Positions 56,477 to 60,033 of a stretch of 64,000 bases of DNA are shown here, piece after piece; the stretch's first letter is position 1; every line of letters starts with the position of its first letter. Below the pieces are notes generated by a model, which saw only the letters and a program-made list of their open reading frames with translations, was not told the DNA's origin and ran no database searches. The position numbers and the translations under genes are program-made. Origin of the DNA: Burkholderia sp. BCC0506. Lineage in GTDB: Bacteria > Pseudomonadota > Gammaproteobacteria > Burkholderiales > Burkholderiaceae. The DNA lies in assembly GCF_902833145.1 (NCBI RefSeq), contig NZ_CADFEN010000002.1:434001-498000 (forward strand), given 5' to 3'.

Positions 56477-56806
56477 TCATGCGTGAGCCGGCTGCGCGGG
56501 AACCACGGATAGCCGCAGGCCGACCGTCTTGAGCACCGCGAGCAGGGTTTTCAGCGTCGGGTTGCCATTCGGTGACAGCGTGCGGTACAGCGATTCGCGG
56601 CTGATGCCGGCTTCGGCCGCGACGGCGCCGAGCCCGCCGTACGCTTCCGCGACCGTGCGCAATGCGAGCAGGCCGGCCGCGCGGTTGTCCGGGTCGTCGA
56701 GCGATTCCATCGCGACGCGCAGATAGGCGACAGCGAGTTCGCGGTCGGCGCCGAGTTCGGCAACTTCCGCGTCGTGGTGCGATACCGCACCTTTGAGCTT
56801 GTTCAT
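56477..56806 (-). CDS. Antitoxin of a HigBA-type toxin-antitoxin pair
   Basis: 109 residues of the addiction-module antidote family with an XRE-like helix-turn-helix (LRTVAEAYGGLGAVAAEAGISRESLYRTLS, then NPTLKTLLAVLKTVGL). The N-terminal ~40 residues (SHHDAEVAELGADRELAVAYLRVAME) are the usual toxin-binding part. The start overlaps the toxin stop by 4 bases. Toxin-first order is that of HigBA/RelBE-like Gp49 modules. It is expected to neutralise the toxin and repress the shared promoter. Confidence 0.85.
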   Translation of the reverse strand: MNKLKGAVSHHDAEVAELGADRELAVAYLRVAMESLDDPDNRAAGLLALRTVAEAYGGLGAVAAEAGISRESLYRTLSPNGNPTLKTLLAVLKTVGLRLSVVPAQPAHA

Positions 56807-57135
56807 GTTTGCCTCCGTTTCCAGTTCGACCAGTGTTCCCTGGCGCGCCTGATGTCGTCGGATTGACTCGCCTTGTCGCCGCCGGACAGCAACAGCACCA
56901 GGGCGCTGCCGTGCCGGCCGAAGTACACGCGGTAGCCGGCGCCGACATGGACGCGCAGTTCGATCACGCCTTCGCCGACCGGCTCGCAATCGCCGAAGTT
57001 ACCGGTCTGCACGCGACGCAGGCGCTCGCGAATGCGTGCCTGCGCGGGCTTGTCACGGATGGCGTTCAGCCATTCGGTGAAAGGCTCGCGACCGTCGTCG
57101 CGCCGATAGCGAAGGAGTTTGAACTTGGCGAGCAT
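56803..57135 (-). CDS. RelE/ParE-superfamily (Gp49/HigB-like) toxin
   Basis: 110 residues: FTEWLNAIRDKPAQARIRERLRRVQTGNFGDCEPVGEGVIELRVHV then GYRVYFGRHGSALVLLLSGGDKASQSDDI-RRAREHW. This matches phage-derived Gp49-like toxins, mRNA interferases that cut at the ribosome. The conserved GYRVYF and the late basic residues are intact. No ribosome binding site precedes the ATG; instead the base before it belongs to a palindrome containing a TATAAG, which suggests a leaderless transcript. Confidence 0.85.
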   Translation of the reverse strand: MLAKFKLLRYRRDDGREPFTEWLNAIRDKPAQARIRERLRRVQTGNFGDCEPVGEGVIELRVHVGAGYRVYFGRHGSALVLLLSGGDKASQSDDIRRAREHWSNWKRRQT

Positions 57136-58036: not shown

Positions 58037-58990
58037 TCAGACGGCGAACGCGCCGTCGAACACGATGCGTTCGTCGAGCGCGAGCGTGCCGCGCGCGAAG
58101 ATCAGGTCGAGATGGTGGCTGCCGTTTTCGCCGCCGCCGAGCCCGAGATGCAGCCCGGGGTGGCGTTCCTCGAACCCCGCGTTGCGGCCGTACAGGCCGC
58201 GGATCCCGAGGTTCGTGCCGATGCCGAATTCCTCGATCCGCCGGTGATTCGCGTGCCGGTCGAGATAGGTCGAGAAATCGCGCCGGAAGCCCGCATCGTC
58301 GGTGTCGAAATCGACGATCGTGCTGTGCTCGACATGCAGCGTCGCGAGCCGCTCGGCCACCTTGTACTTGATCGCGAACGGCACGGTGCCGAGAAACGTG
58401 CCGCTGAACACGACCGAGCCGTTGAGGTCGGTCACGTGCGTCGCGATCTCGCCGGGCACGACGTCGAGGTTGCCCATGCCGTCTACGCTCGTCCACTTCT
58501 GGTCCGGCGTGAGCGAGCCCGTCAGCGCGTTGCCGGCTTCGTCGATGAAGCGGATCCGCGACGCGCGTGCGGCCGCCTCGATCAGCCGGCCGTTGCGTGC
58601 GGCGATGTCGTCGAGCGATTCGGCGAACGCCTCGTCGAGGTGCGGACCGTAATCCTTGAACAGCACCGACTTGCTCCAGTGCTCGACGATCGCGGGGCGG
58701 ATCGCGGCGAGGAACGGCGGCCCGCTCGGCGACGGTGTCGGCAGGCACGACGAGTCGTACAGCAGCACGAACAGGTCGGCGTCGTCGAGCGCGGCGGCGA
58801 TTTCGCCGGGCGGCGTGCTTTCGAGGCAGAGGGTGGTCGCGTCGAGCGAATCGGGCAGGGCGGAAAAGGCGCGCAACGCGATGTCGCGGTTGCGGGTGTC
58901 GTAGCCGACCAGCAGTTTTCCCGATTCGCCGCGTGCCAGCTTGTCGCGCAGCGCCGGGTGAAAGCCGAGCGCGCGGTGCAGGTTCTGCAT
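58037..58990 (-). CDS. M29-type (aminopeptidase T-like) metallopeptidase family protein, compact
   Basis: 317 residues, shorter than typical M29 aminopeptidases (about 370-410). The N-terminal ~150 residues form a Rossmann-like domain without clear motifs. The C-terminal half has the M29 metal-site pattern: VVPGE (Glu181), EEFGIGTN (Glu254), HLGLG (His281) and HHLD (His293, Asp295), the ligand order expected for a two-metal peptidase. It has no signal peptide and so acts in the cytoplasm. It is the only other gene on the transcript of the 40-residue peptide, separated from it by a perfect hairpin. It may cleave, bind or mature that peptide, which is an inference. Confidence 0.72.
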   Translation of the reverse strand: MQNLHRALGFHPALRDKLARGESGKLLVGYDTRNRDIALRAFSALPDSLDATTLCLESTPPGEIAAALDDADLFVLLYDSSCLPTPSPSGPPFLAAIRPAIVEHWSKSVLFKDYGPHLDEAFAESLDDIAARNGRLIEAAARASRIRFIDEAGNALTGSLTPDQKWTSVDGMGNLDVVPGEIATHVTDLNGSVVFSGTFLGTVPFAIKYKVAERLATLHVEHSTIVDFDTDDAGFRRDFSTYLDRHANHRRIEEFGIGTNLGIRGLYGRNAGFEERHPGLHLGLGGGENGSHHLDLIFARGTLALDERIVFDGAFAV

Positions 58991-59007
58991 GCGTATCTCC
59001 GGAAACG

Positions 59008-59031
59008 GCGGAAGGGCCGCGGCCCTTCCGC
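59008..59031 (-). promoter_or_regulatory. Perfect hairpin between peptide gene and M29-like gene
   Basis: GCGGAAGGGCCG followed directly by its exact reverse complement makes a 24-base perfect palindrome, 17 bases after the peptide stop and 17 bases before the M29-like start. It lacks a T-run. Its place suits partial termination or mRNA protection that would favour the peptide over the enzyme. Confidence 0.65.
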
Positions 59032-59048
59032 GAGAACGGGTGGCCCGC

Positions 59049-59171
59049 TCAGACCGGCCAGAGCGCGGTGCCGAACGGCACCACGGCGTCCTCGACCATC
59101 ATGTCGACGGCTTCGGGGTGCGTGTCTTCCTGCATCCAGTCAAGCAATTCGATTTGCTGGGTTTCCTGCAT
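59049..59171 (-). CDS. 40-residue acidic peptide, candidate RiPP precursor
   Basis: Opens with ATG after AGGAGA at 7-base spacing, an excellent ribosome binding site, and ends 58 bases before the M29-like gene. The peptide begins MQETQQIELLDWMQED and ends in the hydrophobic VVPFGTALWPV. It has nine Asp/Glu, one His and no Lys or Arg, so an acidic leader-like N part and a neutral C-terminal tail are visible. There is no Cys and no signal peptide. The layout (short precursor, hairpin, then one peptidase-like protein) resembles ribosomal peptide systems. No known precursor family is recognised, so the function is open. Confidence 0.65.
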   Translation of the reverse strand: MQETQQIELLDWMQEDTHPEAVDMMVEDAVVPFGTALWPV

Positions 59172-59274
59172 GTCAATTCTCCTGTGGTGAACATGAGTGA
59201 TTCAACATGAAAGCGCGGTAAAAGTATTTCCGCTCCTCGTTCGATATTTTGTGAATGCCGGACGAGTGGCGTCG

Positions 59275-59303
59275 ATATTAGTCTGCTGAATTTGCGAAAG
59301 CAA
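59275..59303 (-). promoter_or_regulatory. Sigma-70-like promoter for the peptide gene
   Basis: On the minus strand TTGCTT (59,303-59,298) and TAATAT (59,280-59,275) are separated by exactly 17 bases. Transcription would start near 59,268, giving a leader of about 97 bases before the peptide ATG. The surrounding AT-rich DNA fits a strong promoter. Confidence 0.6.
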
Positions 59304-59577: not shown

Positions 59578-60033
59578 TCATCCGAGCAACGCCTTTCCGA
59601 TCGCCTTGGTCGGCTCGGAGCGCAGCACCAGCGAAGTCGTGACCGCGCCGAAGCGGGCAATCGCGTCGATGAGCGTTTCGAGCTGGCCCGGCGTCGGCAC
59701 CAGCACCTTCAGCAGAAAGCAATCCTCGCCGGTCATGCGGTGGACTTCGATCACATGCGGCATGTCGGCAAACGCGCGCAGCGCCGGTTTGATGTGCTCG
59801 TGCGTCGTTTTCAGCCGGATGATGGCCATCATGCCCAACCCGAGCGCCGCCGGATCGATCCGTGCGCCGTAGCCGGCGATGATGCCGCGTTCCTCGAGTC
59901 GCTTGACGCGCTCCGAGGTCGCGGGCTGTGACAGCCCGATGCGCCTGCCGACTTCCGATAGCGGCGTTCGCGCGTTCTCCTGCAAGGCTTCGAGGATCGC
60001 AAGATCCAGGCGATCCAGTGCTTCGTCCGGCAT
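59578..60033 (-). CDS. Lrp/AsnC-family regulator
   Basis: 151 residues: helix-turn-helix LDRLDLAILEALQENARTPLSEVGRRI then GLSQPATSERVKRLEERGII, and the RAM/AsnC ligand domain (MMAIIRLKTTHEHIKPALRAF, HRMTGEDCFLLKVLVPT). Such proteins respond to amino acids. It lies upstream of the peptide/M29-like pair on the same strand and is divergent from the hydrolase gene; either could be its target. An inverted repeat lies just ahead of its start. Confidence 0.87.
   Translation of the reverse strand: MPDEALDRLDLAILEALQENARTPLSEVGRRIGLSQPATSERVKRLEERGIIAGYGARIDPAALGLGMMAIIRLKTTHEHIKPALRAFADMPHVIEVHRMTGEDCFLLKVLVPTPGQLETLIDAIARFGAVTTSLVLRSEPTKAIGKALLG

Follow-up and report, generated by a model that had tools for sequence, protein, structure and literature searches.

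A conserved acidic peptide gene paired with a CgnB-like M29-fold metalloprotein gene: a candidate minimal RiPP-like cassette in Burkholderia and other genera

Introduction

Within the window analysed here, a stretch of 64,000 nucleotides from the 7.29-Mb genome of Burkholderia sp. BCC0506, a 40-codon gene for an acidic peptide lies 58 nt upstream of a gene for a compact M29-like protein, both on the minus strand (Table 1). The question raised by this locus is whether the two genes form a functional unit and, if so, what the protein does to the peptide. An earlier note on this DNA had proposed binding, trimming or maturation of the peptide by the protein, and had recognized no described family with such a two-gene layout. 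The analysis described below favors, on balance, a stand-alone minimal RiPP-like cassette, in which a CgnB-type protein would bind the tail of the peptide and modify or cleave it, by analogy with crocagin biosynthesis.

Table 1. Positions of the cassette, of its flanking elements and of other loci mentioned in the text (positions of the window unless a locus or genome is named)
Feature	Position	Strand	Basis or remark
M29-fold metalloprotein gene, CgnB-like, 317 aa	58037-58990	minus	ORF, metal ligands, predicted fold
Perfect 24-nt palindrome (RNA hairpin)	59008-59031	minus	between peptide stop and enzyme ribosome site
40-aa acidic peptide gene, candidate precursor, C-terminal AVVPFGTALWPV	59049-59171	minus	ORF and ribosome site
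Plausible sigma-70-like promoter, TTGCTT-17nt-TAATAT	59275-59303	minus	upstream of peptide, below consensus-scan threshold
Lrp/AsnC-type regulator gene	59578-60033	minus	first in minus-strand order, then peptide, palindrome, M29-like gene
Likely toxin-antitoxin pair	56480-57135	minus	addiction-module antidote match and Gp49-like match below cut-off
Enzyme remnant without peptide	G493:C1:2619985-2620068
Cassette and flanking genes, Photorhabdus	L026:7313-12170
Radical SAM gene, Chromobacterium	L034:7986-9047	minus	about 1 kb downstream, opposite strand
TPR protein gene (example)	L122:8500-9915	plus	same strand as enzyme gene
Distant-subfamily gene	L126:6969-8159	plus
Distant-subfamily gene	L132:4353-5534	minus
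Distant-subfamily gene	L133:4001-5128	plus

Conservation of the peptide

The peptide gene was found as the earlier note had described it. Served by an AGGAG ribosome site, it encodes MQETQQIELLDWMQEDTHPEAVDMMVEDAVVPFGTALWPV, which contains nine Asp/Glu residues and zero Lys/Arg. The peptide is conserved: in a set of 19 Burkholderia sequences (the window and L005-L022, with L023 left out), pN/pS is 0.16 for the peptide and 0.19 for the enzyme, and the C terminus AVVPFGTA[L/M]WP-x is common to six genera among the best 80 of at least 115 loci. A chance open reading frame is thus rejected. The strongest conservation is that of the C-terminal tail (alignment A2); across 65 sequences from Burkholderia and Pseudomonas, the last 12 codons vary at their third position and never at their second. 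Fourteen chosen peptides, which are acidic, share L9, W12, M25, A29, V30, T35, A36 and W38 as invariant residues in the same alignment, and all 14 end with [L/M]-W-[P/A] plus at most one residue. This last residue is V, F, L or absent in the chosen peptides, and M and H are also found there among the best 80 of at least 115 loci. The acidic N-terminal part is patterned around xxLxxW..E.TH..AVEMM, and no leader-cleavage motif was recognized in the peptide. The strings FGTAMWP, FGTALWP and VVPFGTA are absent from the literature searched, where no published account of the peptide family was found; most subscription papers and the supplement of PMC10070186 lie outside this coverage.

Pairing and distribution of the two genes

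A search of genome contigs returned at least 115 relatives of the M29-like protein, the best 80 of which were kept as loci. These 80 belong to Burkholderia, Photorhabdus, Chromobacterium, Xenorhabdus, Paraburkholderia and Pseudomonas, with 45-98% identity to the window protein, and the hosts include soil, plant- and insect-associated bacteria. The peptide is present at 79 of these best 80 loci. At 78 it is a short upstream frame on the same strand with the VVPFGTA[L/M]W tail; in L036 (Xenorhabdus kozodoii) the order is reversed, and the peptide gene, which has a GAGG ribosome site, follows the enzyme gene. In L038 the contig ends inside the enzyme gene, and no peptide lies upstream. By tblastn, each of the 80 loci has one enzyme place.

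Whole genomes gave the same picture. Of 65 Burkholderia genomes, 50 encode the full-length enzyme, in 54 copies, and these same 50 encode the peptide, likewise in 54 copies (E < 1e-19). One further Burkholderia genome has an enzyme fragment only and no peptide, and the other 14 have neither gene, save one weak hit taken for chance. In Pseudomonas, 89 of 249 genomes encode the enzyme and the same 89 encode the peptide, while one further genome retains a 28-residue enzyme remnant without a peptide. Scripted pairing placed the peptide upstream on the same strand in 54/54 and 89/89 copies, with 55-96 nt between the profile matches in all 143 pairs. In total, 139 of the 314 genomes from Burkholderia and Pseudomonas contain the pair. 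One genome (G669), in which the enzyme reads as two overlapping pieces near its end and the frame may be broken, was counted as present; G453 and G493, which hold only remnants and no peptide, were counted as lacking the pair, and 11 weak peptide rows (E 0.02-0.6) in the Burkholderia search were dropped as chance. The enzyme remnants, in L127 (G453) and in G493, may reflect joint loss of both genes. Neither of the two outcomes that would have spoken against the proposal of the earlier note was observed: the peptide is conserved, and no full-length copy of the enzyme in the 314 genomes stands without it. The layout is that expected for RiPPs, a short conserved peptide gene beside a dedicated protein, adjacent in 143 of 143 copies. 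In an even draw of 398 Pseudomonadota genomes, eight had a match, six of them with the peptide; of the other two, L091 is truncated where its contig stops, and L092, a distant relative, lacks this peptide.

A second, diverged cassette occurs in Burkholderia, with 46-47% enzyme identity to the window. It is additional in four genomes and the sole type in one, and in all five cases its own peptide is diverged as well and ends VIPFATALWA. The branching of the enzymes disagrees with that of the species: Chromobacterium and Xenorhabdus group together (93/96), and the Paraburkholderia enzyme, whose peptide is Pseudomonas-like, is placed outside the Burkholderia-containing group (95/100). In this tree, peptide types follow the enzymes. 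Together these features fit transfer of the two genes as a unit, within the limits that long branches and open forks set on the tree.

Neighboring genes

At the best 80 of at least 115 loci, to which the following cluster counts also refer, no additional gene keeps a constant position next to the pair from genus to genus. Clustering of frames of at least 70 aa within 9.5 kb gave 15 clusters in two or more genera. One is the enzyme, three (1, 10 and 79) overlap it, and the distance or side of the other eleven differs between genera; only the enzyme and frames overlapping it span more than three genera. Cluster 14, an amino acid permease, has 43 Pseudomonas and 2 Xenorhabdus members, and cluster 3 has 42 Pseudomonas, 18 Burkholderia and 3 Xenorhabdus members. 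Ten neighbors scanned in five genera comprise an amino acid permease (two loci), a pseudouridine synthase, a MatE transporter, a riboflavin synthase-like protein, a cyclopropane fatty acid synthase-like protein, a LysR regulator, an EamA transporter, an aquaporin-like protein and one protein without a family.

In the window, a GNAT acetyltransferase gene converges on the pair from the other side. The twelve neighbors scanned include two MFS transporters, regulators, a serine hydrolase, a VTT-domain protein, an ABC ATPase and an addiction-module-like pair, which is likely a toxin-antitoxin system near the cassette judging from its matches (Table 1); two of the twelve matched no family. Among all scanned neighbors (12 in the window, 10 and 9 at other loci, a few without a family), no dioxygenase family was found. 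Transporters lie near some loci, and no exporter or protease is consistently linked. In Photorhabdus L026, the cassette lies between the riboflavin synthase-like and cyclopropane fatty acid synthase-like genes. The radical SAM gene near the Chromobacterium cassette L034 has no counterpart among the other scanned neighbors.

All five second-type cassettes (L121-L125) are followed on the same strand, after 135-141 nt, by a gene for a TPR protein of 472-476 aa. At a loose threshold, two of these proteins gave a sub-threshold glycosyltransferase-9 match (E 0.11-0.13), and each of the 65 Burkholderia genomes searched encodes related TPR proteins. Glycosyltransferases have been noted in crocagin-like clusters (Adam et al. 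2023, PMC10070186).

Intergenic hairpin and promoter

The earlier note had placed the pair between a promoter and a perfect hairpin. The palindrome is real; it lies between the two genes, however, and does not frame them. Its core arms GGAAGGG/CCCTTCC are invariant in 20 aligned Burkholderia rows (A3), and at the next base pair a two-sided change in L022 keeps the pairing and a change in L021 breaks it. Hairpins of different sequence occupy the same intergenic slot in other genera. Folding of 77 of 78 loci against mononucleotide shuffles gave a mean z of -4.3 in 8 Photorhabdus, -2.1 in 45 Pseudomonas, -1.5 in 3 Chromobacterium and -1.6 in 19 Burkholderia loci. The z value is below -2 in 40 of the 77, drawn from the best 80 of at least 115 (Burkholderia 3/19, Photorhabdus 8/8, Chromobacterium 1/3, Pseudomonas 26/45, others 2/2). 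Rfam returned no match at the gathering score, and a known RNA element is rejected on this ground. The hairpin suggests unequal output of peptide and enzyme, and it probably lowers the enzyme relative to the precursor.

A consensus scan detected no sigma-70 promoter and no terminator at the pair. The promoter of the earlier note is nevertheless plausible from its sequence, since the columns ATTGC and TAnTAT of the element upstream of the peptide are invariant in 19 aligned Burkholderia rows (A5, with L014 left out).

Fold and metal site of the M29-like protein

Neither the peptide nor the M29-like protein matched Pfam or NCBIfam at E 1. The window protein has 0 Pfam families at E <= 1, hence no Peptidase_M29 (PF02073) match, and an ordinary M29 aminopeptidase is rejected accordingly. 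PF02073 is also missing from the nine families listed for 33 scanned members, which were matched by one or two members only at E > 0.02 and are taken for chance; it occurs in 1 of 80 genomes of the order, and not in that of the window. A defense or phage gene is rejected as well, as PHROGs gave none, phage records were without a match, and PADLOC gave just Cas2 at E 0.0074, taken for chance. So is a plasmid gene, the only records filed as plasmids being three of 3.2-3.5 Mb, sized like large Burkholderia replicons.

The five metal ligands named in the earlier note, Glu181, Glu254, His281, His293 and Asp295, are invariant in 81 of 81 sequences (the window and the best 80 of at least 115 loci), and so is Glu275. 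When relatives of 18-23% identity are added, these six remain among 23 invariant columns. An AlphaFold2 model of the protein reached a pLDDT of 92.3, showed the M29-like fold along its full length and matched CgnB (6zsv) in the PDB by Foldseek at E 1.1e-12; only nine PDB chains, those of CgnB, CgnE, NicX, AmpT and PepS, were matched at E <= 0.001. Identity in the structural alignment with CgnB and CgnE is 12-16%. At the sequence level, the profiles A1 and A7 recovered neither CgnB nor M29 among PDB sequences, and the broadened HMMER profile A6 matched CgnB at a non-significant E of 0.16, a match used for register only. In that register, Glu252/Glu274/His280/His291/Asp293 of CgnB (chain numbering read with an inferred offset of 8) align with Glu254/Glu275/His281/His293/Asp295, and Glu181 was paired with the sixth CgnB ligand, Glu161, by order only. 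By its predicted fold and its metal-site residues, the window protein is of the CgnB/CgnE kind.

Comparison with known systems

CgnB and CgnE are peptide-binding proteins of crocagin biosynthesis (6zsv and 6zsu; PMC10070186). They share with the window protein an M29-derived fold, a length of about 300 aa, the lack of a Pfam family and a nearby peptide gene, and CgnB has the same six-ligand dinuclear site; the M29 aminopeptidases hold their dinuclear center in the same place (PMC10070186). The crocagin cluster contains two close copies, CgnB and CgnE, together with the 2OG dioxygenase CgnC, whereas each locus here (best 80 of at least 115) has one copy and one peptide, and no conserved oxygenase, protease or methyltransferase lies beside the pair. 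The peptides differ as well: the crocagin precursor has a basic leader and ends Ile-Tyr-Trp, while the peptides here are acidic, with no Lys/Arg in that of the window, and end Ala-Leu/Met-Trp-Pro-x. The M29 enzymes with solved structures (AmpT 2ayi, PepS 4icr/4ics, AMPS 1zjc) are alike in fold; in contrast to them, the window protein has a constant peptide neighbor and no Peptidase_M29 match. It is also shorter, as the earlier note had stated: it has 317 aa, whereas the solved chains have 397-413 residues. The CgnB/CgnE kind lacks the N-terminal dimer interface of the aminopeptidases; for the window protein the corresponding observation is its shorter length.

As to the novelty seen in the earlier note, the peptide family is without a published account in the literature searched, but the fold and metal site of the protein are those of the CgnB/CgnE kind. 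Adam et al. (2023) also report CgnB homologues that occur singly, retain their metal sites and have precursors predicted by RiPPER (PMC10070186). We regard the pair as a two-gene form of the CgnB kind that stands alone, related proteins having already been described. Judged by titles, PMC10070186 is the only report on the CgnB protein in the literature searched.

Possible function of the pair

The reading that we consider moderately probable is that of a minimal RiPP-like cassette with a CgnB-type maturation protein. The short gene would encode a precursor consisting of an acidic N-terminal part, the near-invariant core AVVPFGTA[L/M]WP and at most one variable residue, and the second gene would supply a CgnB-type protein with a shortened M29 aminopeptidase fold and an intact six-residue dinuclear metal site. 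The protein would most likely bind the precursor mainly via the C-terminal core, as reported for CgnE and CgnA (PMC10070186), and the metal site would act on the Ala-Leu/Met-Trp-Pro tail by cleavage or cyclization. The intergenic hairpin would keep enzyme output below that of the precursor, and any additional enzyme that may be required would work in trans. Strict pairing and the analogy with CgnB make binding of the conserved tail and action through the metal pair the likeliest role of the protein. This reading is favored by the pairing of all 143 copies, by the diverged second cassette keeping its own peptide, by the peptide type following the enzyme in the tree, by the Foldseek matches with six ligands invariant even in distant relatives, and by the hairpins in the intergenic slot. 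Against it, a tethered peptide-linker-enzyme AlphaFold model, the structure prediction suggested in the earlier note, left the peptide undocked at a pLDDT of about 30-40 (with a shallow alignment), the sequence similarity to CgnB is not significant, and no dioxygenase was found among scanned neighbors, whereas CgnB worked together with CgnC (PMC10070186). The lack of a recognized leader-cleavage motif and of a linked exporter or protease, and the small share of Burkholderia intergenic stretches that fold below z -2 (3 of 19), also count against it. The earlier proposal of binding, trimming or maturation agrees with the linkage and, by analogy, with the kinship in fold with CgnB/CgnE, and drew no support from the model.

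A bolder claim, possible but rather doubtful in our estimation, is that the pair represents a new two-gene RiPP class, in which one M29-fold dinuclear metalloprotein recognizes the precursor and makes the defining modification of its Ala-Leu/Met-Trp-Pro tail without an oxidase, a protease or an ATP-dependent partner. If so, a core that is nearly identical in six genera would mean that all of them make the same small molecule, more akin to a signal, a metallophore or a cofactor than to a variable antibiotic; the near-invariance of the core predicts one product common to soil, plant- and insect-associated bacteria. In the literature found, work on the CgnB/CgnE kind concerns a single pathway, in which it operates together with an oxygenase. 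For learning how this kind acts on a peptide, a version of two genes would be the simplest system, and the pair would offer a clear test of how an aminopeptidase fold turns into a peptide-binding or peptide-modifying protein.

The protein could instead be a CgnE-like chaperone that only binds the peptide and presents it to an enzyme encoded elsewhere, without catalysis of its own. In crocagin biosynthesis CgnC performs the oxidations while CgnB and CgnE bind CgnA (PMC10070186), and the absence of any other gene with a fixed place beside the pair is in keeping with a partner in trans. CgnE, however, is reported to have lost its metal ligands (PMC10070186), while all six are invariant here, and no trans partner is known; this role is rather unlikely. 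A peptidase or other hydrolase acting on another substrate, with the acidic peptide as its dedicated inhibitor or regulatory subunit, is an improbable alternative. The M29 fold, the metal site and the strict one-to-one pairing agree with it, and pairing alone would fit a regulatory subunit or inhibitor equally well; yet CgnB and CgnE, of similar size and fold, are reported to show no aminopeptidase activity (PMC10070186), the peptide is most strongly conserved at its C-terminal tail, and the hairpin suggests unequal output.

An oxygenase with this fold does exist, namely NicX (7cn3, 7cup), which gave the highest VIA Z (21.4, over 279 aligned residues at 5.0 A), and a mononuclear-iron enzyme oxidizing the conserved Trp might be imagined for this reason. 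NicX, a 2,5-dihydroxypyridine dioxygenase, acts on a small pyridine with a mononuclear Fe held by His265/Ser302/His318/Asp320 (PMC7910607). Such an activity is very improbable for the window protein: Glu254 and His281 stand where NicX has His265 and Ser302 (matched by order only), and the order-matched positions Glu254, His281, His293 and Asp295, together with Glu181 and Glu275, make up the dinuclear M29/CgnB set. A leader-peptide attenuator or uORF controlling the enzyme gene, to which a short frame followed by a conserved hairpin upstream of an enzyme would correspond, is hardly credible, since most changes in the peptide gene are synonymous and the encoded sequence is kept, and is largely refuted by the gene order in L036.

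A distant subfamily

Distant relatives of 376-397 aa, with 18-23% identity and the same six ligands, carry a Cys-Cys-Gly near the C terminus. At each of the three loci (L126, L132 and L133), a frame of 60-84 aa lies upstream and contains a W-x-V/I stretch close to its end. BLAST detected no similarity among these three frames; the subfamily and its upstream frame are possibly another peptide-protein pair.
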